Source: Reichenbachiella agariperforans
GTDB lineage: Bacteria > Bacteroidota > Bacteroidia > Cytophagales > Cyclobacteriaceae
Reading direction: 5' to 3'
Assembly: GCF_900142205.1 (NCBI RefSeq)
Contig: NZ_FRAA01000003.1
Location: 186,001-250,000 of the forward strand
Length of the DNA stretch: 64,000 nucleotides
Part shown: one piece after another, positions 24,610 to 59,278 of the stretch
How the letters are laid out: each line of letters starts with the position of its first letter
Position numbering within the stretch: position 1 is the stretch's first letter
Notes under the pieces: generated by a model
Told to the model about the DNA's origin: nothing
The model's database searches: none
The model's input: only the letters and a program-made list of their open reading frames with translations
Translations under genes and position numbers: made by a program

Positions 24610-24643
24610 TGCGTTTTTTATGCACTTTTACATGCATATTGCA
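24610..24643 (+). promoter_or_regulatory. TGCA half-site cluster upstream of the NagX-like gene (putative DeoR operator)
   Basis: TGCG at 24610 and TGCA at 24621, 24633 and 24640, in A/T-rich DNA, end 28 bp before the ATG at 24671. Steps are 11, 12 and 7 bp. The same TGCA-N7-TGCA pattern occurs before nagB, susC and in the deoR/namZ divergon. Confidence 0.6.
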
Positions 24644-24670
24644 CATAAAGCATTAACTAGTATAAATCGC

Positions 24671-25807
24671 ATGACACAAAACATAGCTCCCCAAAAAAAC
24701 CAACGTTTACTTGCGTTAGATGTATTTAGAGGTATGACCATCGCTTTTATGATATTGGTCAACACACCTGGATCTTGGTCGCATGTTTTCCCGCCACTGC
24801 TCCACGCATCTTGGCATGGGGCGACTCCTACAGATATGGTTTTTCCATTCTTTATTTTCATTGTCGGTGTGTCTATGTTTTTTTCCTTCTCGAAGTTTGA
24901 TCAAGGCCTGACCTCTGAACTGACGAAGAAAATCATCAAGCGAACGATTACTATATTCATGATTGGGCTTTTGCTCAACTATTTCCCTTTTTTCAATCGC
25001 TCATTAGACACGCTGCGAATCATGGGGGTATTACAGCGAATTGCACTAGTATATGGAGCTGCTTCCTTGATCTGCATCTCAGTATCTATCCAGTCGATTT
25101 GGAAAATCGGTACAGGAATACTACTGACCTACTGGGGGCTGCTGTATTGGTTGGGGGGGGCTGAACCTTTCTCTCTAGAAGGAAACATTACTACCGCAGT
25201 GGATTTAGCCATACTTGGAGAAAACCACATCTACAAAGGGTTCGGAATCCCATTCGATCCTGAAGGGCTATTGAGTACCCTACCTGCCATTGTCACTGCG
25301 ATGTTTGGCTATCTAGCCGGCTACACCGTACAGTCCTTCAATGACAAGAATTTATTAGTCAAAAATCTACTCTTAATAGGAACGAGCACTGTACTTCTTG
25401 CACTGGTATGGGATACAGTATTCCCCATCAATAAACCTATTTGGTCTAGCAGCTATGTTTTGTTTGCTGGCGGTATAGCGTGCATTACACTGGCACTATT
25501 AATAGAGATCATTGACATTAGAGGCTACAACAGGTGGACCAAGCCCTTCATCGTTTTCGGGATGAACCCTATGATAATTTTTGTTTTTTCTGGAGTACTA
25601 TCCAAGGTAATGGTCTACATCATCACATGGAAAGACGCTGAGGGCGAAACGGTGAGGTTCTACCGCTGGTGCTATGAAACCATCTATATGGGAGCGTTTC
25701 CTAATCAAGCCAAACTCGCATCCCTCTGTTTTGCCATGACAGTGGTCAGTATCTGCTGGGCATTTGGCTATGTACTGTACCGAAAGAAAATTTTTATCAA
25801 GGTTTAG
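24671..25807 (+). CDS. nagX: NagX/HGSNAT-like membrane protein (DUF5009)
   Basis: 378 residues from the ATG at 24671; the frame continues 72 codons upstream, but that part is not protein-like and contains the operator cluster. About ten transmembrane helices. The N-terminal RLLALDVFRGMTIAFMILVN, the HASWHGATPTDMVFPFFIF segment and KRTITIFMIGLLLNYFP are diagnostic of the family of heparan-alpha-glucosaminide N-acetyltransferase and NagX, found in GlcNAc-use clusters. It probably acylates or otherwise handles amino sugars at the inner membrane. A run of eight G (25153-25160) lies in the coding sequence. It converges with lysA, 6 bp apart. Confidence 0.85.
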   Translation: MTQNIAPQKNQRLLALDVFRGMTIAFMILVNTPGSWSHVFPPLLHASWHGATPTDMVFPFFIFIVGVSMFFSFSKFDQGLTSELTKKIIKRTITIFMIGLLLNYFPFFNRSLDTLRIMGVLQRIALVYGAASLICISVSIQSIWKIGTGILLTYWGLLYWLGGAEPFSLEGNITTAVDLAILGENHIYKGFGIPFDPEGLLSTLPAIVTAMFGYLAGYTVQSFNDKNLLVKNLLLIGTSTVLLALVWDTVFPINKPIWSSSYVLFAGGIACITLALLIEIIDIRGYNRWTKPFIVFGMNPMIIFVFSGVLSKVMVYIITWKDAEGETVRFYRWCYETIYMGAFPNQAKLASLCFAMTVVSICWAFGYVLYRKKIFIKV

Positions 25808-25813
25808 CCCGTC

Positions 25814-26977
25814 CTACACCTCAGCGTGTAGCGCCGAAAAAAACTGCTGTGCATTTTCTTCGTCAGAGAACATGGGTTGGTTTTCACCTCTCATGTTATA
25901 CTGGGTCGATAGGACACTGCCATAGGCTCCTACCGAACGTATCTGCAACAAATCACCTCTTTGTGTTGTAGGCAAAACATGTTTCCCAAAAGTGTCTGTG
26001 CTTTCACAAATGGGCCCTACGACTTCATACTCATGATCTGGAAGTACAGAACTCACATTCTGAATCACGTGCCTGGCACCATACAAGGCAGGCCTCATCA
26101 ACTCTGACATTCCCGCATCTATGATTGCAAAATCCAATTCCTTAGTCTTCTTGATGTAAAGCACCTCCGAAAACAAATACCCTACCTGCCCGACAAGCGA
26201 CCTACCCAGTTCAAAATGAACTTGCTGGTTATCATAAATATTAAGGTACCGTCTATAGTTTTCAAAATAAGTGTCAAAATCCGCTATTGGGTTCGCATCA
26301 GGTTTTTTGTAATCAATACCCAATCCCCCACCAACATTGACATTGGCTGGATTATATCCTTTGTCACGAAGTGCCTTCTGCAAGACATTAACTTCTGTGC
26401 ATAATCTTACAAAAGGAGATAAGTCTTCGATCTGAGAGCCTATATGAAAATGTAGCCCTGCAAAAACCAAACAAGGGTATTTCGCTAGTTCTTCCAGCGC
26501 TAGCCACAGCTCATTTGCGGGAATACCAAATTTATTACGTAAAGTTCCCGTTGTGATATTTGGATGAGTCTTCGCATCTATATTTGGGTTGAGTCTCAAG
26601 TAAACATTCGCTGATTTTTGCAATTTATTAGCCACCTCGGCGATCACTACCAGCTCTTCTATCGACTCACAGTTAATCCCATGTACTTCACTCGATATGG
26701 CTAGTTCCAATTCCCAATCCGTCTTACCCACTCCTGCGTAGACAATTTGATCCGCACCAAACCCCTGTTCTAACGCATACCTAACTTCACCCCCACTGAC
26801 ACAGTCTACTCCGAGTCCGGTAGCTTTCATTTTTGCTAAGATTTTAGCCTCGGCATTCGCCTTTAAAGCATAGTGTACATGAAAAGAACTATCCCCTCTG
26901 GCACGCACCATCTTGGATAGCGTCTGATCCAATAAGTCTAAATCGTAGTAATAAAAAGGTGTTTGTATCTTTTGCAT
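25814..26977 (-). CDS. lysA: Diaminopimelate decarboxylase
   Basis: 387 residues, slightly shorter than typical LysA. Fold-type III PLP enzyme: YALK39AN is the PLP lysine motif, GLHFHIGSQ (about 178) and NVGGGLGIDY (about 218) are the glycine-rich phosphate-binding loops, and GPICESTDTFGKHVLP carries the C-terminal substrate Cys. It converts meso-diaminopimelate to L-lysine. It closes an operon with the Ala-Glu epimerase and D-amino-acid dehydrogenase, so its substrate may be mDAP released from peptidoglycan stem peptides rather than biosynthetic mDAP. That reading rests on context. Confidence 0.9.
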   Translation of the reverse strand: MQKIQTPFYYYDLDLLDQTLSKMVRARGDSSFHVHYALKANAEAKILAKMKATGLGVDCVSGGEVRYALEQGFGADQIVYAGVGKTDWELELAISSEVHGINCESIEELVVIAEVANKLQKSANVYLRLNPNIDAKTHPNITTGTLRNKFGIPANELWLALEELAKYPCLVFAGLHFHIGSQIEDLSPFVRLCTEVNVLQKALRDKGYNPANVNVGGGLGIDYKKPDANPIADFDTYFENYRRYLNIYDNQQVHFELGRSLVGQVGYLFSEVLYIKKTKELDFAIIDAGMSELMRPALYGARHVIQNVSSVLPDHEYEVVGPICESTDTFGKHVLPTTQRGDLLQIRSVGAYGSVLSTQYNMRGENQPMFSDEENAQQFFSALHAEV

Positions 26978-27038: not shown

Positions 27039-28055
27039 TCAACTAATCAAAGAAGAGACTCCTATGCCTGCCGAATCTGGCACCACGATGGTATTGTTAG
27101 CCAAACGTACACCATCAGCGATCTCACTTTCTAGCAGCAAAAAACCATCCATATCCACATAGTCTAGCAACGGCAATAGCTGAGCTATAGCCGAGATACC
27201 TACTGATGACTCTGTCATGCATCCCACCATCACTTTCATTCCATAGGATTTTGCTTTACTAATCATTCTTCTGGCTGGTGTCAATCCCCCACACTTCATG
27301 AGTTTGATATTCACGCCGTGAAAGAAACCATAACACCGCTCGATATCACCTTCGCCTACAATACTCTCATCAGCGATGATGGGCAAAGGGCTTTTTTCAT
27401 ACAAAGTCTTCATCCCGAGCCAATCGTCAGCTACCAAAGGCTGTTCTATAAACTCTACACCTAGCCCTATCATCTCGCGGGCATTAATGAGCGTCTCTTC
27501 TACTCCCCACCCACAGTTGGCGTCCACCCGAAACTTCGCATCTGTGAGCTTTCGGAGCTCTTTGATGATCGCGATATCTTCTTTGGTACCTAGTTTTATT
27601 TTATAACTAGGCCATGGGAACTCCTCCAGTTTCTGAGCCATTTTCTCTATTGTATCTATCCCAATCGTATAGTTAGACACCAGGTTATGTGAGCTTTCCT
27701 CCCCCCATAGTTTGCTCAGCGAGACTCCTTTTGATTTGGCATAGAGATCATTGACAGCTACGTCTAAAGCAGACTGAGCAAAAGAATTAACAGACATCTC
27801 AGTAGACATATCTACCCAAAACTCCTCAGGGCTTTGATACTGATAAGACTCGATCTGCTCACGATTGACTTCCAGTATGGCTCTCATCTCTTCTATGCTA
27901 TAGCCATAATATTTGCTAGCTGTCGCCTCTCCAAAACCTGAAAACTGCCCATCTCGTAACTCCAAAATCAAGGATTTCTGAATATCTCTAGAATCGTGTG
28001 CAATGCTAAACCTGTGTTTCAGCTTCAAATCATACTCGTGTAATATTAGCTTCAT
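27039..28055 (-). CDS. L-Ala-D/L-Glu epimerase (enolase superfamily)
   Basis: 338 residues with the full enolase-superfamily set: K152-I-K154 (acid/base Lys), metal ligands D178 (FRVDAN), E204 (FIEQP) and D229 (IADES), and the second base K251 (VNIKLMKCGG). The C-terminal DMDGFLLLE fits dipeptide epimerases of the YcjG/YkfB type, which convert L-Ala-D-Glu from murein to L-Ala-L-Glu so that ordinary peptidases can split it. It lies 15 bp after the D-amino-acid dehydrogenase gene and 61 bp before lysA. Confidence 0.93.
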   Translation of the reverse strand: MKLILHEYDLKLKHRFSIAHDSRDIQKSLILELRDGQFSGFGEATASKYYGYSIEEMRAILEVNREQIESYQYQSPEEFWVDMSTEMSVNSFAQSALDVAVNDLYAKSKGVSLSKLWGEESSHNLVSNYTIGIDTIEKMAQKLEEFPWPSYKIKLGTKEDIAIIKELRKLTDAKFRVDANCGWGVEETLINAREMIGLGVEFIEQPLVADDWLGMKTLYEKSPLPIIADESIVGEGDIERCYGFFHGVNIKLMKCGGLTPARRMISKAKSYGMKVMVGCMTESSVGISAIAQLLPLLDYVDMDGFLLLESEIADGVRLANNTIVVPDSAGIGVSSLIS

Positions 28056-28070: not shown

Positions 28071-29330
28071 TTAGTTAAAATTGCCTCTCAGCGCATAATA
28101 GCTAGGATCGATGTGTGTCTCTTTAGCTGTCAAAATCTCAGAAACGAGCTTACCCGTGGCAGGTCCCATACTGAGCCCGAGCATATTATGACCGCAGGCC
28201 ATAAGCATATTTCTATACTTCGGGGCATGATCTATGATAGGTAAGCCATTGTTGGTCATCGGTCTCCAGCCATACCAGTGTTCCAATACATCATCTGTGT
28301 ATGGATCTCTCAAATAGATATTCGCTGCCTTTTTAAGTGCATTGAACCGAACCTTATTCAGCTCAGTATTGTATCCCGCAAACTCCATGGTACCTCCTAG
28401 GCGATAGCTCCCATTCCATGGTGTAGCAACCACCTTTTTCTCCTCCATGATACAGGGCATTTTGGGACTAAAACCAGGAGACTTCATTGTAATACTATAT
28501 CCTTTACCTGGGACAATGGGAATTTTCAAATCTAGATCATCAACTACTTTGGGAGACCACGCTCCTGTCGCTAGCACTATATTTTTAGCTTTGAAATCCC
28601 CACGGTTGGTATTAATTCCTGTTATCTGATAATTAGCACTTTCAAACCCCACTACTTCCGTTTCTTCAAAAAACTGAACTCCTTTTTGTTTGAGTGTTTT
28701 CTTGAGTCCTGCTACCATCAGATCAGGTTTAATGGATGCATCGAACCGATACCACCATCCTCCATGTACGTTTTCACTCAATGCTGGCTCTTTTTGATAT
28801 AATGCATCACCCACCATAGGATCTGCCATCAGCTGCATATCCAAGTCCGTCAATCGACGATTGATCGCAGCATGCTTATCAAATGCTTTTTCCGACTCAA
28901 AAGCAAACATAATCCCCTCATCAGACCAATTACAATCAATATTCTCCTCCTTAATGATATCCTTAAACAATGCCTTTGAACTTAGCATCAAGTTATTTCG
29001 CCCCTCCATGGCTTTTTGCACCTTATCAGCACGAGCATTGAGACCAAACCCCAACATCCATGAGATAAAATTGGCATCTAACTGAGGACGGATATAAAAT
29101 GGAGAATCACTCTGAAAAAGCCATTTCATGGCTTTCATCATCAGTTCCGGACTATTGAGAGGAAGCGCGTGGCTAGGACTGACTAAACCACAATTGGCAT
29201 GAGAACAGGCATCCTTGGGCGCACCCTTTTCTATGATTGCGACTTCTACTCCTTCCTTTTGTAAATAATATGCACAAGAGAGTCCTACAATCCCTCCTCC
29301 TATGATTATCGTATCTATGTTTTTCTTCAT
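28071..29330 (-). CDS. D-amino-acid dehydrogenase, DadA-like FAD oxidoreductase
   Basis: 419 residues. The N-terminal FAD Rossmann motif is IIGGGIVGLSCAYYLQKEG, and the DAO-type pattern continues with CGLVSPSHALPL, KNIVLATGAWSPKV and VPGKGYSITM. It ends with WYGWRPMTNNGLPIIDHAP and the CGHNMLGLSMGPATGKLV C-terminal FAD motif of DadA. The family oxidises D-alanine and other D-amino acids to 2-oxo acids and passes electrons to the respiratory chain. In this locus the likely substrate is D-Ala freed from stem peptides. First gene of a three-gene operon. Confidence 0.9.
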   Translation of the reverse strand: MKKNIDTIIIGGGIVGLSCAYYLQKEGVEVAIIEKGAPKDACSHANCGLVSPSHALPLNSPELMMKAMKWLFQSDSPFYIRPQLDANFISWMLGFGLNARADKVQKAMEGRNNLMLSSKALFKDIIKEENIDCNWSDEGIMFAFESEKAFDKHAAINRRLTDLDMQLMADPMVGDALYQKEPALSENVHGGWWYRFDASIKPDLMVAGLKKTLKQKGVQFFEETEVVGFESANYQITGINTNRGDFKAKNIVLATGAWSPKVVDDLDLKIPIVPGKGYSITMKSPGFSPKMPCIMEEKKVVATPWNGSYRLGGTMEFAGYNTELNKVRFNALKKAANIYLRDPYTDDVLEHWYGWRPMTNNGLPIIDHAPKYRNMLMACGHNMLGLSMGPATGKLVSEILTAKETHIDPSYYALRGNFN

Positions 29331-29813: not shown

Positions 29814-30503
29814 TCAACGAACAGGAAAATCAAAATACTGATTAGGAAAAGGCTCTTGGTTTAATGTATAATGCCACCACTCCTTACGATAATGCCTAAA
29901 TCCATATTCCCGCATCGTAGCTTTCAGTAATTCTCTATTGGCTAATTGTGTTTTGGAAACCATCGCCTCATGATGAGACCGAACATCAAACATGTCAAAG
30001 GGGCTACCCATATCCAACGGTCGCTTCGTGTACAGATCGATCAAAGACAAGTCCACGCTGCTACCCCTAGAATGTCCAGATCTATGGGCTATATATCCCA
30101 ACTGAAACAACCGACTCTTTTGAACATGAGGATAAAACACAGATTTCATTCTACGATCACTAAGATCGGATGCCCACCTAGAAAAATGATTAACCGCACG
30201 CTGTGGTCGATAGCCGTCATATACGATTAGGCCATAACCACGCCCATTCAAATCCTGCTGCACCTGTGCAAGTGCCTCTCCTGCCTTCTGAGACAGAATC
30301 AATACTGGAGCCTCGTACCCATCGATGGTATCTCCTACGAAGTTATTGGTAGAATAATACCGCAAGTCAAGCATAATAGTAGAATCGAGTGTCTGTACAT
30401 ACACAAAGCCATTGGGTAATTGTGCAGATACCGACATAGACAAGCTTAAGATCAATGACATGACCATCACCCAAAACCCCTTTGCTATGTCTACCCTACA
30501 CAT
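29814..30503 (-). CDS. D-alanyl-D-alanine dipeptidase (VanX/DdpX family, M15D)
   Basis: 229 residues with a signal peptide (ending SVSAQ). The M15D zinc motifs are complete: the SGH144SRGSSVD151 box and E208-W-W-H211 near the C-terminus, with the YDGYRPQ Arg upstream. The enzyme cleaves free D-Ala-D-Ala. It should act in the periplasm on dipeptide released from pentapeptide stems and so feed the D-amino-acid dehydrogenase. The gene starts 10 bp after the M14 carboxypeptidase gene, in one operon with it and the AmpD-like amidase. There is no VanH/VanA homologue nearby, so resistance is unlikely. Confidence 0.92.
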   Translation of the reverse strand: MCRVDIAKGFWVMVMSLILSLSMSVSAQLPNGFVYVQTLDSTIMLDLRYYSTNNFVGDTIDGYEAPVLILSQKAGEALAQVQQDLNGRGYGLIVYDGYRPQRAVNHFSRWASDLSDRRMKSVFYPHVQKSRLFQLGYIAHRSGHSRGSSVDLSLIDLYTKRPLDMGSPFDMFDVRSHHEAMVSKTQLANRELLKATMREYGFRHYRKEWWHYTLNQEPFPNQYFDFPVR

Positions 30504-30513: not shown

Positions 30514-31974
30514 CTACCGAACAATCACACCATTTTTTATCTTGAGCTGATTTGATTTCACATCATACAAGAAACCATTAAGCACTACATAGCGAACATT
30601 TTCGTCCTCCATCAGCAGAAATGTAGCACCACTTCTCAGCTTCAAATCAGCTTTTAGTTTATCCATATCAGCGGTAGTTGTCAGGTTGATCGGCCACTCA
30701 CTGTACTTAGTCTCTGCAGAGATAGAATCTGTTTTGATCCACGCTTTACCTTCTCTCAGATAGCCTAGCAACTCATCCGTACTGATCGCTAAACTATCGC
30801 TCGACCCGTCTACCACTCCTGCCTCTCGATAGGTCAATCCTGTAGCGTCCAAAGTCTCAAAGCCATAATAGGTTGACAAATCTCCCACCTCGGAAATTTT
30901 TCCCACAAAATGATAATCATCATGTGCCTCATTATCGATTTGATAATGATGTATCCCAGCGTCCATCCGGTAAGGCTTTCCATTTCGGACGTAAGTCAAA
31001 TTTTCTATTTTTAGATCAAATAGTTTTCTGTCGTTTTGAGGTATTTCTTCATAACGGTCTATAGACACCTGAGCATAACTCTCGTCCGCTATACTGAAAA
31101 TAGCAGCAAGAATAGACATGTAATTGAGTTTGCGAATTTCCTGCTTGTCGGGATCATTGTACTGACCTCCTGACTCGATCAAAATAGCACTAGTCCCCCA
31201 TTTTTGAATATTGTCTCCAAAGGCGCGAGGTTCGAAATCATCCGAATAACGTCCTACTTGACCAGGTACATATTTTTGGATAATGTCATTCATCAATACG
31301 ATGACTTTCATGGCATTGGCTCGGACATCGTTGATGTCCTTATCATAATTGTAAGCAGGAGCTAAATAAGAAATCGTAGCTGGTTTAGCCGTGCGCTCAG
31401 CATTATAATAGCGACTTTGGTCGTGAAGGTTAAACCCAAACTCAGCATCCAAACTATCCCGAACCGCCTTGAGGATTTGTCCCTCTGATGTTTGCAAACG
31501 TAGCGCGTCTCTGTTGATATCAATATCAAGCGCATTGCGCCTTTGAAATACCTCAGCACCATCTGGGTTCAACATAGGCACAAAATGCAACCGCACCTGT
31601 TTCAGCAATTCTTTTTTCTCTTTTTTAAACGATTTTTTATCCGACAAAAAGTTAAGCATATCGAAAATCGCCATAGTAGCCGTAGATTCATCACCATGCA
31701 TCTGAGACCATAGCAAAATATCAGTATCTCCAGTACCTACAGAAATCATAGAGACACTACGTCCATCGATAGAATGCCCTAATACACTAACCTCGAATCC
31801 TTTGATCTCTTTATACTGTTCAATGAGCGGCTGTATGTCCGCATGTTTGAATCTTAGATGTGTCAGCGTCGGCTCACGATAGTCTTCATATCCCTCGTAT
31901 AACTTGTCAAAAGTCGGTTGACTCATCGCTAATGTCGGCAAGAAGAATAGGACTAAATAAAATCTCTTTATCAT
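30514..31974 (-). CDS. M14 family zinc carboxypeptidase, secreted
   Basis: 486 residues from the ATG at 31974 (a TTG four codons upstream is rejected), with a signal peptide ending LAMSQ. The M14 domain has the first zinc motif HGDE (about residue 90), the downstream INRDAL and NLHDQSRYY (third zinc His) and the ILIESGGQ segment containing the catalytic Glu region. The C-terminal 150 residues are a separate beta-rich domain. M14 enzymes in murein clusters include gamma-D-Glu-mDAP carboxypeptidases; position between an amidase and a VanX-type dipeptidase suggests stem-peptide trimming. Confidence 0.88.
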   Translation of the reverse strand: MIKRFYLVLFFLPTLAMSQPTFDKLYEGYEDYREPTLTHLRFKHADIQPLIEQYKEIKGFEVSVLGHSIDGRSVSMISVGTGDTDILLWSQMHGDESTATMAIFDMLNFLSDKKSFKKEKKELLKQVRLHFVPMLNPDGAEVFQRRNALDIDINRDALRLQTSEGQILKAVRDSLDAEFGFNLHDQSRYYNAERTAKPATISYLAPAYNYDKDINDVRANAMKVIVLMNDIIQKYVPGQVGRYSDDFEPRAFGDNIQKWGTSAILIESGGQYNDPDKQEIRKLNYMSILAAIFSIADESYAQVSIDRYEEIPQNDRKLFDLKIENLTYVRNGKPYRMDAGIHHYQIDNEAHDDYHFVGKISEVGDLSTYYGFETLDATGLTYREAGVVDGSSDSLAISTDELLGYLREGKAWIKTDSISAETKYSEWPINLTTTADMDKLKADLKLRSGATFLLMEDENVRYVVLNGFLYDVKSNQLKIKNGVIVR

Positions 31975-31986
31975 ATCTATAGACAA

Positions 31987-32667
31987 CTATTGTAGAGGTG
32001 TTTTCAACTTTGGCTCAGGCAATGGCAAGAATCCCAAATCATCCGTCTGCTCTCTAATTGCAGCCATAAAAGCTTTGCCTGGATCAGACTTCACGGTACG
32101 GTAACCAGCATCTTTTTCCAACCACAGATCATGCCCTTCGAACAATGTATACTCGTCATGGCCAATCAAATATTGAATATCATACTTCTCTTTGAGATAC
32201 GAAACGAGCCATACATTGGCTTTGACCTGAGAGGGAGTTAACGGTACTGCATCCGTACCTCCTACATTCTCAATTCCTATGGCGCAGTGATTGAGTCCTA
32301 TGACATGTCTTGCCATGTAGTTCTCTGGCATCAGGCGATATATAGTCCCATCTTGATTGACCAAAAAATGAGCAGATACGTTCAGTGCTCCTGCTCCTGC
32401 AATCTCTGGCCTCCAGTTGGGCAACTTAGAATTTTCGAAAGCTGCTATAGACTTCTCTAATGTAGGAATCACCGTATAGTGGACTACAATCATCTTAGGA
32501 TCGATCGTCGGCTTCTCCTGTACCAGACCATAGTGTTCGTCGAGATACTGCAGAGTCAAATCCACTCGCTCTTGATCAAAACTAACCGGTCTATCCACTA
32601 TCTTGTTTTCCTCACAGGAAGCAAAGACCATCAATACCAATACCCAAAGACAAATCTCATTTCTCAT
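31987..32667 (-). CDS. N-acetylmuramoyl-L-alanine amidase (Amidase_2, AmpD-like) lipoprotein
   Basis: 226 residues with a lipoprotein signal (MVFASC, Cys at 18). The Amidase_2 domain shows the first zinc His in VVHYT, the ARHVIGLNHCAIGIENVGG core, and the C-terminal GHDEY and KSDPGKAF segment that provides the other ligands. It cleaves the bond between MurNAc and L-Ala of muropeptides. The lipid anchor places it in the periplasm or at the outer membrane, unlike cytoplasmic E. coli AmpD. It heads an operon with M14 and VanX-type peptidases. A strong terminator lies only 41 bp upstream of the start codon. Confidence 0.92.
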   Translation of the reverse strand: MRNEICLWVLVLMVFASCEENKIVDRPVSFDQERVDLTLQYLDEHYGLVQEKPTIDPKMIVVHYTVIPTLEKSIAAFENSKLPNWRPEIAGAGALNVSAHFLVNQDGTIYRLMPENYMARHVIGLNHCAIGIENVGGTDAVPLTPSQVKANVWLVSYLKEKYDIQYLIGHDEYTLFEGHDLWLEKDAGYRTVKSDPGKAFMAAIREQTDDLGFLPLPEPKLKTPLQ

Positions 32668-32707: not shown

Positions 32708-32763
32708 TTTTGTCCTGACCTTTTAATCACCGAAACATCGCCAATTAAAAGGTCAGGACAAAA
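32708..32763 (-). terminator. Intrinsic terminator of the nagB-murK-murQ operon
   Basis: A perfect 20-bp stem, with arms at 32708-32727 and 32744-32763 (core TGTCCTGACCTTTTAAT) and a 16-nt loop, lies 35 bp past the murQ stop. A/T-rich arm ends provide a U-tract on the minus strand. Confidence 0.9.
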
Positions 32764-34500: not shown

Positions 34501-34523
34501 TTGCTTATGACTATTCAACCTTT

Positions 34524-36431: not shown

Positions 36432-36436
36432 TTTTG

Positions 36437-36545
36437 GATCTAAAATTAGATCAGAGGAGCTTAGACTATGATCCACTCCTCTGATGACTAACAATTTCAA
36501 ACTCTAATACTAACCTGTGGTCATAGTGCGAATAAAAAACCACAG
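36437..36545 (-). promoter_or_regulatory. Structured leader of the nagB operon
   Basis: Between the operator cluster and the nagB ATG lie three hairpins: CTGTGGT/ACCACAG (36515-36545), a perfect 10-bp stem ATCAGAGGAG/CTCCTCTGAT (36450-36459 and 36476-36485), and GATCTA/TAGATC (36437-36452). The last two share 36450-36452, so they compete at that edge. The last one ends 6 bp before the start codon. This suggests a leader RNA that affects translation or elongation; no known riboswitch was recognised. Confidence 0.45.
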
Positions 36546-43545: not shown

Positions 43546-43564
43546 CGTTGTTCGCATTACTTAT

Positions 43565-46648: not shown

Positions 46649-46708
46649 GCAGCTATGTTCATTTTTGTTAAGAATCATACAGCAATATAATCAATAACTC
46701 AGGCTTAA

Positions 46709-47475: not shown

Positions 47476-47488
47476 CTTTTAATCCTCC

Positions 47489-48301: not shown

Positions 48302-48327
48302 CTTTTCGTCTTTAATGTCAATACTCA

Positions 48328-51582: not shown

Positions 51583-52482
51583 TTACTCTGGTTTAAAAAT
51601 ATACATCTGTCCTTCGGGTGTATTCGCTGTGATCTGTAGCGTAGCGGTATCAAAATTTGGGTTTTCGAGGGCTACATCTAAATCACTCCCAACAGGAGTC
51701 ATTTTATTATTTTGAATATCTAACACGCCGATTTCTGCAGACAGCTGCTGCATACCGTCATCAGTCGTTTTAGCATATAGTACGGTTTGGTTATTGATCC
51801 AAATATCGGCATGTACATCTGCCAATTCATGCATGATATTTCCTTTCAAGTCACAGATGACCGCTACATTCCCTGCCGATTTGGTAAGTATTTTTTTCCC
51901 ATCAGGAGACAAAACTGCATATAGATAGTTTCCTTCACCTTGTGGTTTAACCGGTTGCTCCTCACCGCTCACCATGATCCCAGACAGATCCTCTGCTAAC
52001 GATACAGTTGTCTCTCCAGAGAGACTTTTGTGGTACTCCTGTGGAGAAAATCTTGCAAACTCTGAAGCCACCTTAGTCACTTCTTTGGTTTTCATATCGA
52101 TCTGTTCCAATCGCTTCGTTTTGCCTTTGACTTGATAGGTAACCTTATCACCAGAAATTACCGGTAGATATCCAGCACCTCGTTGATCCGTTAGTTGCGT
52201 TACCTCATTAGTGGTCAAGTCTAGCATCCAAAGACCTTCGTACTTTTGATCAGTATAGAGCAAAATCTTTCCCTCAGTGGAAAACTGAGGGAAATAACCT
52301 GTAGGCTCCAATAGCTCTGCAGTATATGACCCGTTAGAAACAGGCGTTTCTTCTTTCTCTTCCACGACCTCTTGAACAGCGGTTTCTTGACCGACTTGGT
52401 TCGTTTCATTAGCTGCTCCCTCTTTAGACGGGGAGCAGCTAACTACTTGTAGAATCAACATTAAAACAATCAATTTTCTCAT
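51583..52482 (-). CDS. TolB-like beta-propeller lipoprotein (paralogue B)
   Basis: 299 residues with lipoprotein signal (LQVVSC, Cys at 16) and an acidic Glu/Val linker. The body is a PD40-type propeller: TGYFPQFSTEGKILLYTD, LWMLDLTTNEVTQLTDQRGAGYLPVISG, YLYAVLSPDGKKIL, WINNQTVLYAKTTDDG, and GQMYIF at the end. It is homologous to the protein at 47489-48301. Its start overlaps the GHL10 stop by 4 bp and its stop is 4 bp from the amidase start, so expression is tightly coupled to both enzymes. Confidence 0.8.
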   Translation of the reverse strand: MRKLIVLMLILQVVSCSPSKEGAANETNQVGQETAVQEVVEEKEETPVSNGSYTAELLEPTGYFPQFSTEGKILLYTDQKYEGLWMLDLTTNEVTQLTDQRGAGYLPVISGDKVTYQVKGKTKRLEQIDMKTKEVTKVASEFARFSPQEYHKSLSGETTVSLAEDLSGIMVSGEEQPVKPQGEGNYLYAVLSPDGKKILTKSAGNVAVICDLKGNIMHELADVHADIWINNQTVLYAKTTDDGMQQLSAEIGVLDIQNNKMTPVGSDLDVALENPNFDTATLQITANTPEGQMYIFKPE

Positions 52483-54023
52483 TTTTTCGGATTTTTAAGT
52501 GACACTTTTATCATTACACCTTTGCTCGGCTTACTCTCGTTGTACAAGCGACTCAGTGCCGTCACAGCATAAGTATATTTTTTGCGGCGCTGAACGGACT
52601 TATCTACATAAAACGTGGTACTGGCACGTTGGATATCTAGGATATTCTTTGGATCCTCAAAGTCTCCTGTCTCCTTGCCTTCGAAACGGTATATCGCTAC
52701 ATACTTAGCCGTACTATCAGGCATTTGCCAGTTTAGATACACGCCATCGAACTCATTTTGCGCAGAAATACTGTCAGGCATCGTAGGTATTTTTCGTCCC
52801 AACCAACTCATCGCTGGAATGAGAGCCTTTGTACTGTATAGGTCTGTCCTGAGTGAATCACTAAAACCTAGTGGGTTTTGTAGCATAGACTTAGCACTGA
52901 AGTAGGCACCGCCCTGAATATTTTCTAGTTCTCTGGACAAACGAATCTGATCGGGAACCTCTGAAGGATTTTGCCAAGCACTATCTGCACCTTCCAGTCC
53001 AATTCGGTAAGAAGCATGTCCCACATAGACGTGCCCATTGAACGGTTGCTCGTTCCACCACTTGAGCACCTTGCTATACGAGAGCTTTGGATGGTCTATG
53101 TGCAAATACAACTGAGGTAGTACATAATCGATCCAGCCTTCTTCCATCCATAACAGTACGTCTGCAAACAAATCGTCATAGTTCGTTTGACCAGCATCCG
53201 AGTCAGATCCTCTCGGATCATCAGCTATATTTCTCCAGACACCAAAAGGGCTAATCCCAAACTTGACCCAAGGCTTGACACTTTTGATCGTGTCATTGAG
53301 CATTTGTATGACGGTATTTACATTTTCACGTCTCCAGTCATCTTTTTGCTCCAGTTCAAAATCCTGACCATAGGTAGCAAAAGAAAGAGAATCGGGAAAT
53401 TCCTTCCCCCATATTCTATAGGGATAAAAATAATCATCGAAATGTACTGCATCAATATCGTACCTAACCGTCACGTCCTTGATCACATCCGTCACGTAAG
53501 ACTTGACCTCTGGAATTCCTGGATCAAAATACATACGATCTCCATAGGTCACAAACCATTCGGGCTTAGTGTAGAGCAGGTTAGTAGAGTCCTCTGGCAT
53601 TTCCTCAAAGTCCACCAATGCTCTGTACGGATTGAACCAAGCATGAAATTCCATTCCTCTATCATGCGCCTCATCGATCATAAAAGTCAGCGGGTCATAA
53701 TATGGGTCAGGCGCTTGGCCACTCACTCCTGTCAAGTATCTAGACCAAGGTTCCTTTTCTGAATAATACAATGCATCCGCCGATGGTCTAACCTGCACAA
53801 TAACCGCATTGATTCCCGTCATTTCGTGATGATCCAACAGTTTTCGGTATTCAGCTTTTTGATCCTCTACAGTTAGTCCTGGTTTAGAGGGCCAATCAAT
53901 ATTCTTGACCGTTGCAATCCACGCTGCTCTAAACTCGCGCTTTGGTGCAGTCTGGGCGAAAGCAGATAGACCACTCACTAGAGCAATCATCACTACCAAC
54001 ACCCTCTTCTCAATTCCTTTCAT
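52479..54023 (-). CDS. GHL10 (DUF187, DigH-like) glycosyl hydrolase, second copy
   Basis: 514 residues from the ATG at 54023, which gives a signal peptide (ending LSAFAQ); an ATG at 54041 is possible, and the frame's first codon is only a TTG. Residues about 28-415 are the GHL10 barrel: FRAAWIATVKNIDWPSKPG, AVIVQVRPSADALYYSEKEPWS, FHAWFNPYRALVDF and the acidic AVHFDDYFYPY motif, all shared with the enzyme at 36678-39440. One Fn3-like domain follows; no T9SS tail, so it is probably periplasmic. It likely cuts glycan strands freed of peptides by the amidase in the same operon. Confidence 0.9.
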   Translation of the reverse strand: MKGIEKRVLVVMIALVSGLSAFAQTAPKREFRAAWIATVKNIDWPSKPGLTVEDQKAEYRKLLDHHEMTGINAVIVQVRPSADALYYSEKEPWSRYLTGVSGQAPDPYYDPLTFMIDEAHDRGMEFHAWFNPYRALVDFEEMPEDSTNLLYTKPEWFVTYGDRMYFDPGIPEVKSYVTDVIKDVTVRYDIDAVHFDDYFYPYRIWGKEFPDSLSFATYGQDFELEQKDDWRRENVNTVIQMLNDTIKSVKPWVKFGISPFGVWRNIADDPRGSDSDAGQTNYDDLFADVLLWMEEGWIDYVLPQLYLHIDHPKLSYSKVLKWWNEQPFNGHVYVGHASYRIGLEGADSAWQNPSEVPDQIRLSRELENIQGGAYFSAKSMLQNPLGFSDSLRTDLYSTKALIPAMSWLGRKIPTMPDSISAQNEFDGVYLNWQMPDSTAKYVAIYRFEGKETGDFEDPKNILDIQRASTTFYVDKSVQRRKKYTYAVTALSRLYNESKPSKGVMIKVSLKNPKK

Positions 54024-54142
54024 TTTTCTATTTCCTCTCATTGTGTTACCACTTTTCAATAAATCATCCTCGTGACAAGTCCACGAGATATTAACCTTCT
54101 AATCAGCCATATACTTAGACCGAAGGGATTATCTCCCTGCGG

Positions 54143-55816
54143 TTAAATACTTACAGGCAGTATTCCCTTTGCTTCTTTTTTATTACTCACTATTTCATAT
54201 GCCAGACGATGCGTGTATTCGTTCTCCTGATAGGCCAGCAACATAGACTTCACATGGTTTAAACTACCCAACTTAGAGACCGCATAGGCATTGCCAAAGA
54301 AGACGAGGTAAACTGGCACCGCATTAGACAAATCAGCAACCAGCTGAGCCATCTCTGCAGTTATCCCAAAATTGTCTGGTGCTTTGAGTTTCACATTGTG
54401 TATCGCTACAATGACTGCTTGCTTTTCTTTGAGTTCACTAATCACTTTCTCCTTCTTACTCTCGATTTGATCAAAACGTAGAGAAATGCTTTTCTCAATT
54501 CCCAAATCTTTTGTAACCAACTGTTCAAATAGTGGCGTTCCTGTTTGATCCAGAGTTCCTTTGAGCAAAGTATGGTGACTCAGCGCGCCTTGTTCGGCCT
54601 GATCCCCATTAGCAAATAGAGACAGCATACCAATAGATTCATCGTTCAATAACCCTTCAGTATGCTTCACCTGCGTCATCGAAGCTTCATACAACTGTTC
54701 ATTGATCGTACGCGTATCTCGATTAATATCCTCTAATATCCCTTCTAGTTTGATAGGCTCTATCTGATCCAGCCCCATGTTATATTTAGCTACGAGTTGC
54801 TTTAAACATCTCTCGTCTAACTGTTCTTCAGTGATACTGCCGTCCGCTAATGCAACTTTGAACTGTTGTATAGTTGCTTCGACATCCTGCACAAAGAGCA
54901 GTACATCATTGCCAGCTTTGAACGCTTCTACATCCACCTCTCCTATTGCATAGTGATCTGCTACTGCCTTCATATCCAACGCATCTGTAAATACCAGACC
55001 TTCAAACCCCATGTCACCTTTTAGCAAATCTTGTACAATAGAGCGAGACAAAGTAGAGGCGCGTTTGGTATCTGGCTCCAACTGTGGAATCTGCAAATGC
55101 GCGACCATGACGGCCCCCAAACCTGCTGCAAATAGCTTCTTAAACGGGTAGAGTTCCGTCTCTTCCAGTTCTGCACGAGACTTGTCCAATTTAGGCAGCT
55201 CCTTGTGCGAATCTGATGCTGTATCACCATGCCCTGGAAAATGCTTGGCTACAGCCAAAATCCCTTCAGATTGCATCCCTTTCATGTAAGCGGTACCCTT
55301 TTGAGCTACTTTTATTTTGTCCTGACCAAACGAACGAAAATTAATTACTGGATTATCGGGATTCGTATTCACATCAATAACAGGGGCATGATTGACGTGA
55401 ATTCCTATCCTTTTCATCTGGCGAGCAACGATTCCCCCCATTTCTTCAATGGCTTTTTCATCCTCTATTGCACCTAACGTCATTTGATATGGAAAAGGCT
55501 CAGCATTATCCAGTCGCATCCCCAGTCCCCATTCACCATCGATAGAGATCATCAGGGGTGTTTCACTAGATGACTGATATTCATTGGTCAAACGTGCTTG
55601 ACTCACAGGGTCTCCCTGAAAGAATATTAACCCTCCCACTCCATACTTTTGTATGAGATCTTTGATATAGGTAGTGTGCTCATCGTTCTTATTAGACCAT
55701 GTAGCGACATGTATCAATTGTCCAATTTTTTGTTCGACAGAAAATCCACTAAGCATTTGACTCGCCCAGCTTTGAGCTTGGCTATCTTCCTGACCTACTT
55801 TAATATCGTTTTTCAT
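54143..55816 (-). CDS. nagZ: Beta-N-acetylglucosaminidase, GH3 (NagZ-like)
   Basis: 557 residues without a signal peptide, so cytoplasmic. The GH3 barrel (about 15-340) contains the NagZ motif KHFPGHGDTASDSH (about 190, carrying the catalytic Asp-His dyad loop) and VFTDALDMKAVADHY with the nucleophile Asp. The last 200 residues form the second alpha/beta domain seen in long GH3 enzymes. NagZ removes non-reducing GlcNAc from GlcNAc-MurNAc(-peptide). Its start overlaps the ampG stop by 4 bp, which links it directly to imported muropeptides. Confidence 0.94.
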   Translation of the reverse strand: MKNDIKVGQEDSQAQSWASQMLSGFSVEQKIGQLIHVATWSNKNDEHTTYIKDLIQKYGVGGLIFFQGDPVSQARLTNEYQSSSETPLMISIDGEWGLGMRLDNAEPFPYQMTLGAIEDEKAIEEMGGIVARQMKRIGIHVNHAPVIDVNTNPDNPVINFRSFGQDKIKVAQKGTAYMKGMQSEGILAVAKHFPGHGDTASDSHKELPKLDKSRAELEETELYPFKKLFAAGLGAVMVAHLQIPQLEPDTKRASTLSRSIVQDLLKGDMGFEGLVFTDALDMKAVADHYAIGEVDVEAFKAGNDVLLFVQDVEATIQQFKVALADGSITEEQLDERCLKQLVAKYNMGLDQIEPIKLEGILEDINRDTRTINEQLYEASMTQVKHTEGLLNDESIGMLSLFANGDQAEQGALSHHTLLKGTLDQTGTPLFEQLVTKDLGIEKSISLRFDQIESKKEKVISELKEKQAVIVAIHNVKLKAPDNFGITAEMAQLVADLSNAVPVYLVFFGNAYAVSKLGSLNHVKSMLLAYQENEYTHRLAYEIVSNKKEAKGILPVSI

Positions 55817-57078
55817 TTCTTTCCAAAATCTTTATCTATTTTCAAAAACCTAGTGATCACAAAAGATGGAATCGTAGCGATCATAACCCATATAAAGAAA
55901 TATTTGTACCCTACTAACTCCTGTACCCATCCACTCACCATACCAGGTAACATCATACCCAAAGCCATAAAACCTGTAGCAATAGCATAATGAGCCGTAC
56001 TATAATTCCCCTGAGAGACATACAGCATGTATAGCATATAACCTGTAAATCCAAAGCCATATCCGAATTGCTCGACTACTACTGCCGTGGTGATCAACAC
56101 ATAAGATTCTGGCTGAAAAAAGGATAAATACACATAAACAAGGTTAGGCAAGTTGATGGCTAACATCATCCACCAGATCCAATGTTTCAAACCATTTCTA
56201 GATGCCAATACCCCACCTACAATACCTCCAATAGTCAACGCCAACACCCCAAAAGTCCCATACATCACACCCACCTCTTGGGTACTCAAACCTAACCCTC
56301 CGACGGTCACATCATCCAACAAAAAAGGAGATGATAGTTTGACCAACTGAGATTCGCCAAGACGGTAGGTCATCAAAAATGCAATCGTCATCAATAAATC
56401 TGGCTTGGTAAAAAAGAGACGGAAAGTCTCGAAAAACTCTGCCAACACTTGACGACCTGTCTTCTTAACGGTAACGGGCTCTTCTGCTTTGGGTAGAAAG
56501 AGCTGGTGATAAATAAAAAAACCAAAGAACAATGCTGATACAACTCCAAAAACAGTGCTCCACGCCATTTGTATACTCGGCATAGTCTCTTCAAAATATC
56601 CCGCCAGAACGACCAAGAGACCCTGACCTGCTATCATAGATATACGGTAAAATGTACTCCTAATCCCTACAAAGAAGGATTGCTGACCAGAATTCAATGC
56701 GATGAGATATAATCCATCCGCTGCTATATCGTGTGTGGCAGAACTAAAAGCCATTAACCACAAAAAGGCCAAAGAATACTGAAAAAAACTATCCATTGGA
56801 ATGGTCAGTGCTACACAAGCCAATGATGCACCCAAGAGTAACTGCATCATCACTACCCATCTCCTTTTGCTACCAATGATATCTACCAGTGGACTCCAAA
56901 TGGGTTTGATTACCCATGGTAGATAAAGCCAACTCGTATAGAAAGCTATTTCCCCATTACTAATATCCAGGTTCTTATACATGATCACCGATACGGTCAT
57001 CACCATCACGTAAGGCAGCCCTTGAGCAAAATAGAGCGTAGGTATCCAATTCCAAGGATTGGTGTTTGCTTTTATCAT
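55813..57078 (-). CDS. ampG: AmpG-like MFS muropeptide/sugar permease
   Basis: 421 residues with 12 transmembrane helices. The start WIPTLYFAQGLPYVMVMTVSVIMYKNLDI, the WLYLPWVIKPIWSPLVD segment and FSSATHDIAADGLYL (near 115) are the hallmarks of the AmpG branch of the major facilitator superfamily, which imports GlcNAc-anhydroMurNAc sugars with or without peptide. Since no anhydro-sugar kinase is present, the cargo here may be hydrolysed (reducing) fragments. First gene of the operon ending at 47.2 kb. Two TGCA sites 5 bp apart (57114, 57119) lie in its leader. Confidence 0.92.
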   Translation of the reverse strand: MIKANTNPWNWIPTLYFAQGLPYVMVMTVSVIMYKNLDISNGEIAFYTSWLYLPWVIKPIWSPLVDIIGSKRRWVVMMQLLLGASLACVALTIPMDSFFQYSLAFLWLMAFSSATHDIAADGLYLIALNSGQQSFFVGIRSTFYRISMIAGQGLLVVLAGYFEETMPSIQMAWSTVFGVVSALFFGFFIYHQLFLPKAEEPVTVKKTGRQVLAEFFETFRLFFTKPDLLMTIAFLMTYRLGESQLVKLSSPFLLDDVTVGGLGLSTQEVGVMYGTFGVLALTIGGIVGGVLASRNGLKHWIWWMMLAINLPNLVYVYLSFFQPESYVLITTAVVVEQFGYGFGFTGYMLYMLYVSQGNYSTAHYAIATGFMALGMMLPGMVSGWVQELVGYKYFFIWVMIATIPSFVITRFLKIDKDFGKK

Positions 57079-57113
57079 TGTGGTTTAATCTTATTTTTCT
57101 ACTAATAGCTACA

Positions 57114-57237: not shown

Positions 57238-57239
57238 AA

Positions 57240-57989
57240 TTATATCACTTGTATACCTCTTGACCTATAACCAGCTAATTTCCCATCGTATGAATCCACC
57301 TCTGTAATCAGTGTATGTATGGACTCTAAACCGCTAACTCTAAATCGTTGCTTGGTATCGATCTTTTCTGAAGTTGACATGACCACCACTTGATCCGAAA
57401 CAGCAATAATGGCTTTTTTCAACTGAGACACTTCCCAATCGATCTCCATTAGCCCCGTATTCATATCAATACCACTAGCCCCTAAAAAGCACTTGTCAGC
57501 TCTAATCTTTGAGATATACTGAATCATATCTAGACCAATCGTCACCTGTGCACTCTTCATCAGCTTACCTCCAAACAAGATCACATCAATTTTCGGATGT
57601 TCCGATAATCTCATTGCGATCGGCAAACTGTAGGTAAACACTGTCACACCTAAATCAGGAGGCATAAGACTGACCAATTCGAAATTGGTCGTTCCTCCAC
57701 CGATAATTAGTACGTCATTGTCTTCGATCAACTCCAGTGCCTTTTCAGCCATCACTAATTTCTTGTCATGGTCAAAAATCTCTTCCTCTTGATAAGAGTA
57801 AACCTTTTGAGAGGTATTTAGCGCTCCACCATGGATTTTTAGTAACTTACCTTCATTGGCTAGTTCCTTGAGGTCACGTCGAATTGTATCCTCTGACACG
57901 TTCAGCCGAACACTGAGGTCAGTAGAATATACCTTTTTCTCCTCCCTAAGCAATTTCAATATCTGATCTTGCCTTTCTCGTTTTAGCAT
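57240..57989 (-). CDS. DeoR family transcriptional regulator
   Basis: 249 residues from the ATG at 57989 (the frame continues 22 codons upstream through the operator sites). The N-terminal helix-turn-helix (RERQDQILKLLREEKKVYSTDLSVRLNVSEDTIRRDLKEL-type pattern, residues 3-45) is the DeoR signature. The sensor domain (about 75-235) has the sugar-phosphate-binding motifs IIGGGTTNFELV and LGASGIDMNTG. Ligands of this family are phosphorylated sugars; GlcNAc-6-P or MurNAc-6-P would fit. It is divergent from namZ, and TGCA repeats in its own promoter suggest autoregulation. Confidence 0.93.
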   Translation of the reverse strand: MLKRERQDQILKLLREEKKVYSTDLSVRLNVSEDTIRRDLKELANEGKLLKIHGGALNTSQKVYSYQEEEIFDHDKKLVMAEKALELIEDNDVLIIGGGTTNFELVSLMPPDLGVTVFTYSLPIAMRLSEHPKIDVILFGGKLMKSAQVTIGLDMIQYISKIRADKCFLGASGIDMNTGLMEIDWEVSQLKKAIIAVSDQVVVMSTSEKIDTKQRFRVSGLESIHTLITEVDSYDGKLAGYRSRGIQVI

Positions 57990-57992
57990 ATT

Positions 57993-58067
57993 TGCATCTT
58001 TTTTGCATGTATAATACCCAAATGTAACATTTATTTGCATATAAATGCAATGCATAGTTTAGATTTA
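57993..58067. promoter_or_regulatory. deoR/namZ divergent promoters with TGCA half-site clusters
   Basis: TGCA lies at 57993 and 58004 (11 bp apart), and at 58036, 58046 and 58051. For deoR (minus strand) a -33 TTG at 58048-58050 and a -7 TACATTTG at 58019-58026 are 21 bp apart. For namZ (+ strand) a -33 TTTG at 58034-58037 and a -7-like TAGATTTA (58060-58067) are 22 bp apart. The right half-sites sit between the boxes of both promoters, so one bound repressor could block both. Confidence 0.65.
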
Positions 58068-58096
58068 CACTAACAAGGGCAAAAACATATCATATT

Positions 58097-59278
58097 ATGG
58101 TAAAAACTGGTTTAGATATATTGAGCAGCAACAAAACTGCACAACAAGACATCAAAGGAAATATTGGTTACTTATGCCATGCTGCCTCTATCGACACTAA
58201 CATTCAGCACGGTATAGACGTCTTGCAATCTATCTTTGGCGAACGACTGACCAAGTTATTCTCTCCTCAACATGGACTATCTGCTGACGTGCAGGATAAC
58301 ATGGTAGAATCAGATCACTTTGAGCATTCGCATTATCATCTACCCGTCTACAGCCTCTACTCCGAAACACGCAAACCTACCCCATCGATGCTCGACAACT
58401 TAGACCATGTCATCATCGACCTGCAAGATGTAGGCACTAGAATTTACACCTACATCTACACGATGATCTATATGATGGAAGCCTGTGGAGAATTAGGTAT
58501 TCCTGTGACGGTTTTGGATAGACCTAACCCTATCGATACAGTTCATGTAGAGGGCAATGTTCTTGATATGCAGTATCGTTCATTTATCGGTCGCTACCCA
58601 ATGCCCATGAGACATGGGTTGACCATAGGAGAAGTAGCACAGATGGCTACCACACACTGGGATGTCAAATGCGAATTAAACGTCATTAAGATGACTGGAT
58701 ATGATCGCCAAATGAGCTTTTTCGATACAGGTCTACCATGGGTTCTTCCATCGCCTAACCTTCCCACAGTAGATGGGGCATACATTTTTCCTGGATCGGT
58801 ACTGTTTGAAGGAACTAACATCTCGGAAGGGCGTGGCACATCCAGAGGTCTCGAAATCATTGGACATCCTGATATCAAACATTTTGACCTGCTAAAAACA
58901 TTAACCCCCATGTTTAGAGAAGCGAAACTAGAAGGCTTTGTACTCAGACCCGTTACGTTCATACCCACCTTTCAAAAACACCATGGTATACCTTGCCAAG
59001 GCTATCAGGTTCATGTAACAGATCTTCAAACATTCGAACCATGGAAGGTTGGTCAGATTCTATGCAAAGCATTTTATCATCACCTTGGACAGGCATTCCA
59101 ATGGAAGCAACCGCCCTATGAGTATGAGTATAACCTACTGCCCATCGACATCCTGAATGGCACAGACCAAGTGAGACAATGGATAGAGTCCAATGGGAGC
59201 CTCTCCAAACTGGAAGAACTCGACATGATAGGTAGAGGAGACTATCTGAAACAGCGTGACCAGATTTTGATCTATTAG
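58097..59278 (+). CDS. namZ: Exo-beta-N-acetylmuramidase (NamZ, DUF1343), no signal peptide
   Basis: 393 residues of the DUF1343 family, whose B. subtilis member NamZ removes MurNAc from the non-reducing end of peptidoglycan chains. Family strings are KLFSPQHGLSADVQDN, VIIDLQDVGTRIYTYIYTM, VTVLDRPNPI, WVLPSPNLPTVDGA and FEGTNISEGRGTSRGLEIIG. The protein starts directly at the domain with no signal sequence, so unlike secreted homologues it should be cytoplasmic, next to NagZ in function. It is divergent from deoR across the shared operator region and converges with csaA, 39 bp apart. Confidence 0.92.
   Translation: MVKTGLDILSSNKTAQQDIKGNIGYLCHAASIDTNIQHGIDVLQSIFGERLTKLFSPQHGLSADVQDNMVESDHFEHSHYHLPVYSLYSETRKPTPSMLDNLDHVIIDLQDVGTRIYTYIYTMIYMMEACGELGIPVTVLDRPNPIDTVHVEGNVLDMQYRSFIGRYPMPMRHGLTIGEVAQMATTHWDVKCELNVIKMTGYDRQMSFFDTGLPWVLPSPNLPTVDGAYIFPGSVLFEGTNISEGRGTSRGLEIIGHPDIKHFDLLKTLTPMFREAKLEGFVLRPVTFIPTFQKHHGIPCQGYQVHVTDLQTFEPWKVGQILCKAFYHHLGQAFQWKQPPYEYEYNLLPIDILNGTDQVRQWIESNGSLSKLEELDMIGRGDYLKQRDQILIY

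Follow-up and report, generated by a model that had tools for sequence, protein, structure and literature searches.

We analysed a 64,000-nucleotide stretch of Reichenbachiella agariperforans DNA (contig NZ_FRAA01000003.1, positions 186,001 to 250,000; here the window) and found a 35-kb block, at 24.6 to 59.3 kb, that is probably (about 0.7) a polysaccharide utilization locus (PUL) for the glycan strands of extracellular peptidoglycan, to which a peptide branch is added. The block begins with nagX-like (+), lysA, epimerase, D-amino-acid dehydrogenase, VanX-like, M14 and Amidase_2 lipoprotein genes, continues with murQ, a MurK-type kinase, nagB/PIG-L, GHL10a, PKDlp, Unk277, susD and susC, and, after TolBa, an Amidase_3 with a type IX secretion system (T9SS) tail and TolBb, ends with GHL10b, GH3, ampG, deoR and namZ (+); all genes not marked (+) are on the minus strand (Table 1). 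Families were assigned by Pfam and NCBIfam scans of the block's proteins, and several assignments combine matches below curated cut-offs with solved relatives. All families named in the original prediction, which was made from the sequence alone, were present in this one gene run; the nagX-like frame at the left edge was missing from its list. Its central claim, a SusCD locus built around peptidoglycan, is well supported by collinear or modular homologues, a regulator gene, repeats before susC, and second murQ, lysA and namZ copies.

A SusC/SusD pair among putative peptidoglycan enzymes

The block resembles Bacteroidota PULs in having a SusC/SusD pair, accessory lipoproteins, degradative enzymes and a local regulator, and differs in its predicted substrate, peptidoglycan. 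The susC and susD genes are adjacent (622 bits against TIGR04056, cut-off 368, with SusD-like_2 alongside), and enzymes for one substrate are present by family: two GHL10 proteins, two amidases, a GH3 enzyme and NamZ. In the text available for Lapebie et al. 2019 (PMC6499787), GH23, GH24, GH25 and GH73 are under-represented in PULs yet occur in several predicted ones.

Individual assignments were examined against curated models and solved structures. The AmpG-type permease scored 179.8 bits against TIGR00901 (cut-off 350) and matched solved AmpG at 7e-24. The GH3 protein scored 159 bits against PRK05337 (cut-off 207) and in alignment carries the KHFPGHGDT...DSH loop of NagZ type, whose Asp and His we take to be catalytic. 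At the positions of T94 and S133-P134-L135 in Tannerella forsythia MurK, where that enzyme has residues needed for N-acetylmuramic acid (MurNAc) according to the text available for PMC10465942, an alignment by eye placed Ser and Pro-Ser-Leu in the locus kinase; these small residues would permit use of MurNAc without being proof of it. The M15 peptidase, at 222.6 bits against a VanX cut-off of 320, is similar to VanX 1r44 over nearly its full length and is by this comparison VanX-like only. The amidase at 31987-32667, predicted originally to be AmpD-like, scored 34.2 bits against an AmpD cut-off of 143 and has a lipoprotein-type signal; it is therefore not cytoplasmic AmpD but an envelope Amidase_2 lipoprotein. 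The predicted NagB deaminase is present, with a fused PIG-L domain in addition. For the two lipoproteins beside SusD, structure models told us little: that of Unk277 was poor (mean predicted local distance difference test [pLDDT] score, 53) and unfit for structure search, and that of PKDlp (pLDDT, 74) gave propeller and Ig-like matches that are uninformative on its ligand.

Copy numbers were consistent with a catabolic role. A second MurQ and a second LysA are encoded on other contigs, and one of the genome's two NamZ matches lies within the window. The LysA on contig C9 is probably the biosynthetic copy, and the locus MurQ groups, with moderate support, with the locus copies of Marinoscillum and of a second relative, G021, the other MurQ grouping with that of a genus-mate. 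The draft genome (98.8% complete) gave no match to AnmK, the marker of canonical anhydro-MurNAc recycling, or to NagA; these were found in 5 of 14 and 14 of 14 control genomes, respectively. Since there is no AnmK match, it is free MurNAc that the predicted pathway would be able to phosphorylate. The PIG-L domain of the NagB fusion is likely a deacetylase in place of the missing NagA.

Repeats and predicted transcription units

Direct TGCA repeats spaced by about one helical turn lie in the region shared by deoR and namZ, before susC, where there are three in succession, and before nagB and nagX; among 13 upstream regions, none were found before the genes for AmpG, GHL10b, Amidase_3, GHL10a, Amidase_2, VanX-like, D-amino-acid dehydrogenase and LysA. 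Four copies of TGCA-N7-TGCA lie in 24400-59300, against a mean of 0.8 in shuffled sequence; one of 200 shuffles had as many. With spacings of 6 to 8, eight repeats occur in the block, two of them within susC and susD coding sequence. A spacing of 6 was tried and replaced by TGCA-N7-TGCA, as it was not enriched (13 found versus 16.7 expected). A longer pattern had eight hits with up to two mismatches in the 5.03-Mb genome, four of them here (reversed control, one), a concentration that is partly circular because the pattern was derived from these same sites.

Repeats that could mark common local regulation lie at four promoter regions. The stretch from 24.7 to 36.6 kb, which takes in the peptide genes, gave no TGCA-N6-8-TGCA site, so the peptide branch is without a demonstrated operator link. 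The proposal that both branches share an operator is half right: operator-like repeats lie at sugar and SusCD promoters, and sharing is not supported for the peptide genes, which lack a site and are set apart from murQ by a hairpin.

Promoter-like sites were not commoner than in shuffles in either half scanned (50 versus 46.5 and 34 versus 44.0). Terminator-like sites numbered 10 versus 10.2 and 18 versus 11.0 expected, and single hairpins are therefore weak evidence. Taken together, the hairpins after PKDlp and murQ and the inverted repeat before susC suggest separate transcription units; because of these three features, at 39501, 32708 and 47008, respectively, a one-operon reading was dropped.

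Conservation of the locus in relatives

Among 59 genomes, including that of the window, a close SusD (66%) was found outside R. agariperforans only in Marinoscillum furvescens DSM 4134; the seven genus-mates gave distant SusD matches only. The Marinoscillum locus has a collinear core, DeoR-AmpG-GH3-GHL10-SusC-SusD-Unk-PKDlp-GHL10-MurK-MurQ, and a TGCA-N6-TGCA repeat 66 bp upstream of susC. No match to the window's peptide genes, NagB, NamZ or secreted amidase was found in 60 kb of it.

G021 carries DeoR-AmpG-GH3-GHL10-amidase-TolB-like genes and NagB-MurQ around another SusCD, whose SusC is 26% identical to that of the window and whose SusD belongs to a different Pfam family (PF07980); at this locus the search gave no MurK, PKDlp or GHL10a. 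In G021 the predicted outer-membrane importer is replaced within the same cassette. The different SusC and other-family SusD occupy the same slot, at L150:12489-16934. The DeoR regulators of Marinoscillum and G021 are 74 to 78% identical to that of the window, and G021 susC is preceded by GCATAAAA twice at 10-bp spacing (by eye), with a near-match before deoR.

AmpG was absent from 7/7 genus-mates (E ≤ 1e-30) and the epimerase from 6/7 (E ≤ 1e-20). Because AmpG is missing from all seven while the genome holds another murQ, lysA and namZ outside the window, the locus is accessory. The expectation that relatives would keep the gene set together rather than scattered was borne out in the more distant family member, with its collinear core, and not in the genus-mates, which lack AmpG and a close SusD. 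A separate locus, DeoR-SusC-SusD-NamZ-MurQ-symporter-GH3-NagX-GHL10, was seen in another family of the class (L186, in genome G226), where it appears independent.

Distribution of the SusD-PKDlp module

PKDlp was used as a marker for the module in 291 genomes of the order and 395 of the phylum, with close matches defined as E ≤ 1e-40. Close matches occurred in 4 of the 291 (the window, Marinoscillum, G584 twice and G610; five further genomes matched more weakly) and in 3 of the 395 (the window, G214 and G218). All seven of these loci have SusD on one side and GHL10 directly on the other, although in five of them only the SusD end falls within the sequence compared. G610 and one of the two G584 copies have a MurQ at 10 to 11 kb from the module. 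Six Sphingobacterium/Parapedobacter loci (L055 and L057-L061) keep SusC-SusD-Unk-PKDlp, with NamZ in 6/6 and MurQ in 5/6.

We also considered 80 SusD-like loci chosen by SusD similarity alone and covering 1.37 Mb. NamZ was present in 26 and any of eight peptidoglycan genes in 31; about one NamZ or fewer would be expected by chance in 1.37 Mb (estimated from ~1 to 2 NamZ genes per genome), with the proviso that related genomes are not independent. On a quick SusD tree with long branches, eight of the nine members of the window's clade were peptidoglycan-linked, and the label was clustered (17 changes versus a shuffled mean of 25; 1 of 500 shuffles was as low). Of its 81 rows, 78 come from the 80 loci (L099 and L132, with no open reading frame of 350 residues, were left out) and two from the seven background rows, of which one strand was read; rows L109 and L110 are identical.

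Several observations weigh against a peptidoglycan PUL of this kind. The other G584 module copy has no MurQ near it. In G683, a distant PKDlp match that aligns over almost its whole length at 26% has neither SusD nor GHL10 in its 3.6 kb, and in the seven loci L055-L061 the gene after PKDlp encodes a GH18-like lipoprotein, not GHL10 (a label taken from the L060 member), and could point to a chitin or glycoprotein substrate; both observations weaken the 7/7 count. One of these loci, L056 (Chitinophagaceae), keeps the series with no recognized peptidoglycan enzyme within 10 kb. On the SusD tree 50 of 81 rows have no peptidoglycan link, and seven more distant SusD matches, one on a 3.6-kb contig, have no adjoining peptidoglycan enzymes. 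No strict repeat was found before Marinoscillum deoR, ampG, GHL10a and murK or before G021 susC, nagB and ampG. GHL10 enzymes acting as lytic transglycosylases can give anhydro products, which would not be phosphorylated without AnmK. Finally, SusC lay within 10 kb of NamZ in 1 of 60 NamZ loci and 0 of 40 controls; the 60 were hand-picked from the best-scoring rows, about one per genus and not at random, with seven shortened by contig ends, and the controls were 40 of 56 planned. Peptidoglycan loci linked to SusCD thus exist but form a minority, and the link is a rare one.

NamZ was rejected as a marker of peptidoglycan PULs, being near-universal (376 of 392 phylum genomes) and SusC-adjacent in 1 of 60 loci. 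Subsets of AmpG, NamZ, GH3, MurK, NagX, TolB-like and Amidase_3 genes were seen clustered without SusCD at four Bacteroidota loci (L197, L207, L196 and L227), and TolB-like/Amidase_3 pairs recur. The lipoprotein after PKDlp at L060:14034-15059 has GH18-type chitinase/EndoH model matches below cut-off, a hint of another substrate or of a GH18 peptidoglycanase.

Alternative roles

The locus might instead recover what turnover of the cell's own wall releases, with SusCD recapturing fragments lost to the medium, which we consider unlikely. NamZ does have several of these genes near it, without SusCD, in other Bacteroidota (of the 60 loci, AmpG in 12, GH3 in 10, MurK in 7, NagX in 7 and GHL10b in 6, versus 1, 1, 0, 0 and 1 in the 40 control stretches), and amidase-GHL10-AmpG sets without a SusD match exist in G027, G008, G028 and G033, G027 having a partial SusC match near its set. 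However, the genome has further MurQ, LysA and NamZ copies, genus-mates do without AmpG and a close SusD, AnmK, which the usual anhydro turnover products require, was not found in the genome, and own turnover would presumably need no T9SS-exported amidase. The original suggestion of more than mere recycling fits this T9SS-tagged amidase and the SusCD pair. Its mention of predation found no pointer in the analysis, which included no test aimed at it.

Import by SusCD of chitin oligomers or N-acetylglucosamine (GlcNAc)-containing glycoprotein glycans, with the neighbouring peptidoglycan genes sharing only the end of the amino-sugar pathway, appears quite improbable. Among solved structures, the locus kinase is nearest to chains named GlcNAc kinase, the window SusD weakly matches the chitin-binding SusD 8j0p (4e-13), and the GH18-like lipoprotein adjoins the module in seven Sphingobacterium-type loci; yet no GH18 or GH20 was detected among the scanned locus proteins (E ≤ 0.001), and the module recurs with MurQ, NamZ, AmpG and GHL10 genes instead. 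Import of stem peptides or muropeptides in the manner of RagAB, a SusCD-type peptide import system, with the glycan handled apart, is very unlikely: epimerase-like genes occur in 9 of the 80 SusD loci, but Marinoscillum pairs SusCD with sugar enzymes while the peptide genes are unmatched in 60 kb, and the window's susCD lies between GHL10 and envelope genes, away from the peptidases.

Proposed pathway and known systems

From the genes, motifs, synteny, copy numbers and repeats we infer a pathway, including its substrates, protein locations, transcription units, regulation and use for growth, for the probable peptidoglycan PUL. Stem peptides would be taken off peptidoglycan by two amidases, one exported by the T9SS and the other a lipoprotein, and the GHL10 enzymes would cut the denuded glycan. 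SusC/SusD and the two conserved lipoproteins would bring sugar oligomers across the outer membrane; AmpG would import GlcNAc-MurNAc to the cytoplasm, where NagZ and NamZ would cleave it, starting from one sugar or the other, to free both. GlcNAc-6-phosphate would then come from the kinase and MurQ, and fructose-6-phosphate from the NagB/PIG-L fusion. DeoR may keep four promoters repressed until an amino-sugar phosphate is present. The stem peptides are probably used by the products of a gene set with predicted transcription of its own (the lipoprotein amidase, M14, VanX-like, epimerase, D-amino-acid dehydrogenase and second LysA). The predicted steps fit together.

DigH belongs to GHL10. Characterized proteins show comparable activities in the text available for each: Tannerella AmpG takes up GlcNAc-MurNAc besides the anhydro form (PMC7670621), Cwp19 of Clostridioides difficile, a GHL10 lytic transglycosylase, produces reducing ends where MurNAc carries no peptide (PMC6016235), and Escherichia coli DigH breaks down denuded glycan (PMC12288456). 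Cwp19 has the same Pfam domain as GHL10b, which matched its structure at 6e-101; the locus differs from DigH and Cwp19 in having two GHL10 copies inside a SusCD locus.

Peptidoglycan recycling in E. coli proceeds by AmpG-NagZ-AmpD-AnmK-MurQ. The locus shares the AmpG, NagZ-type GH3 and MurQ steps and differs in having no AnmK or NagA match, a free amino-sugar kinase, amidases with export signals and an added SusCD.

In the T. forsythia AmpG/MurTKQ operon (Tanf_08345-08385), AmpG, ybbC, MurK and MurQ are likewise grouped, for scavenging of external wall fragments, according to the text available for PMC5388701 and PMC7670621. Neither SusC nor TonB occurs in that text for the former, nor does Sus or TonB as a whole word for the latter, whereas the locus here has SusCD. 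The operon is further described with an inner-membrane MurT and GppX regulation, against DeoR here, and its figure legend names lytB and no GHL10, which the locus has. On contig082 of T. forsythia ATCC 43037 (L088:1-11815), the end of a kinase-like frame (34% to the window MurK) lies just upstream of SusC/SusD pairs; the contig also carries the published operon, and an outer-membrane salvage step is conceivable there. We take the ybbC of that operon to be of the NamZ family.

Peptidoglycan salvage is thus already known in Tannerella, and among the papers listed in searches of open-access literature we found no description of a SusCD importer for peptidoglycan glycan, or of a SusCD peptidoglycan locus, subscription journals being largely outside that search. 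We give about even odds to a broader proposal: that bringing peptidoglycan glycan through the outer membrane is the dedicated task of this SusCD, that a DeoR-AmpG-NagZ-GHL10 platform took up unrelated SusCD pairs at least twice, and that, with the peptide branch, a single locus might obtain carbon and nitrogen from entire peptidoglycan. If so, some Bacteroidota would feed on the walls of other bacteria through purpose-built gates. Dead bacteria leave abundant peptidoglycan, and the importer question bears on the use of this polymer by Bacteroidota; because a named culture-collection strain, M. furvescens DSM 4134, carries the core locus, the question is directly testable.

Feature coordinates and minor observations

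Table 1. Features of the block, in window positions
Feature	Position	Strand	Basis or remark
Operator-like repeats (TGCG-N7-TGCA-N8-TGCA) before nagX	24608-24636	.	
NagX-like transmembrane glucosamine N-acetyltransferase	24671-25807	+	158.7 bits, cut-off 480; no Pfam match; start read from sequence
Second diaminopimelate decarboxylase, LysA family	25814-26977	-	360 bits, cut-off 298
Dipeptide (L-Ala-D/L-Glu) epimerase-like, enolase superfamily	27039-28055	-	Below curated cut-off; solved relative 3iji, 5e-59
D-amino-acid dehydrogenase-like DAO flavoprotein	28071-29330	-	Below curated cut-off
VanX-like M15 dipeptidase	29814-30503	-	Signal-peptide-like start; solved relative 1r44, 7e-52
M14 zinc carboxypeptidase	30514-31986	-	Pfam; signal-peptide-like start
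Amidase_2 lipoprotein (envelope amidase)	31987-32667	-	Pfam; lipoprotein-type signal (FAS-C)
Perfect 20-bp inverted repeat, 16-nt loop, possible terminator, between murQ and amidase	32708-32763	.	
MurNAc-6-phosphate etherase MurQ (another copy elsewhere in genome)	32798-33625	-	NCBIfam
MurK/NagK-type amino-sugar kinase, small residues at MurNAc-specificity positions	33646-34518	-	Solved relatives, alignment
NagB deaminase fused to PIG-L deacetylase domain	34524-36500	-	Pfam and NCBIfam
Operator-like repeat before nagB	36605-36621	.	
GHL10a, GHL10 peptidoglycanase with fn3 domains	36678-39440	-	Pfam
Terminator-like hairpin after PKDlp	39501-39524	-	Longest stem among 10 such sites in that half
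PKDlp, lipoprotein with two PKD domains and predicted beta-propeller, module marker	39569-41218	-	
Unk277, lipoprotein without assigned family, between SusD and PKDlp	41246-42016	-	
SusD (SusD-like_2) lipoprotein	42046-43557	-	Pfam
SusC TonB-dependent transporter	43565-46678	-	TIGR04056, 622 bits, cut-off 368
Operator-like triple repeat TGCA-N7-TGCA-N7-TGCA before susC	46720-46745	.	
Strong terminator-like inverted repeat, upstream of susC promoter region	47008-47050	.	By eye; loop too long for terminator scan
TolBa, secreted protein labelled TolB-like by eye	47489-48328	-	No Pfam match
Secreted or surface Amidase_3 protein ending in a T9SS sorting tail	48328-51579	-	Pfam and NCBIfam
TolBb, lipoprotein labelled TolB-like by eye	51583-52482	-	Weak DUF5050 match
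GHL10b, GHL10 peptidoglycanase	52479-54059	-	Nearest solved relative Cwp19 (6e-101)
GH3 NagZ-type N-acetylglucosaminidase	54143-55816	-	No signal peptide seen; below NCBIfam cut-off; alignment
AmpG-type muropeptide permease	55813-57078	-	Below curated cut-off; solved AmpG match
DeoR-family regulator	57240-57989	-	Pfam; likely start 57989
Operator-like repeats, deoR/namZ divergent promoter region	57991-58050	.	
NamZ exo-beta-N-acetylmuramidase	58097-59278	+	No signal peptide seen

A tRNA scan gave none, and an Rfam scan gave no match at gathering score. In the gap between the TolB-like gene and susC (47092-47476, minus strand), we noted by eye a signal-peptide stub with a stop, followed by a T9SS-tail-like stretch; these remnants are probably the two ends of one deleted secreted gene.

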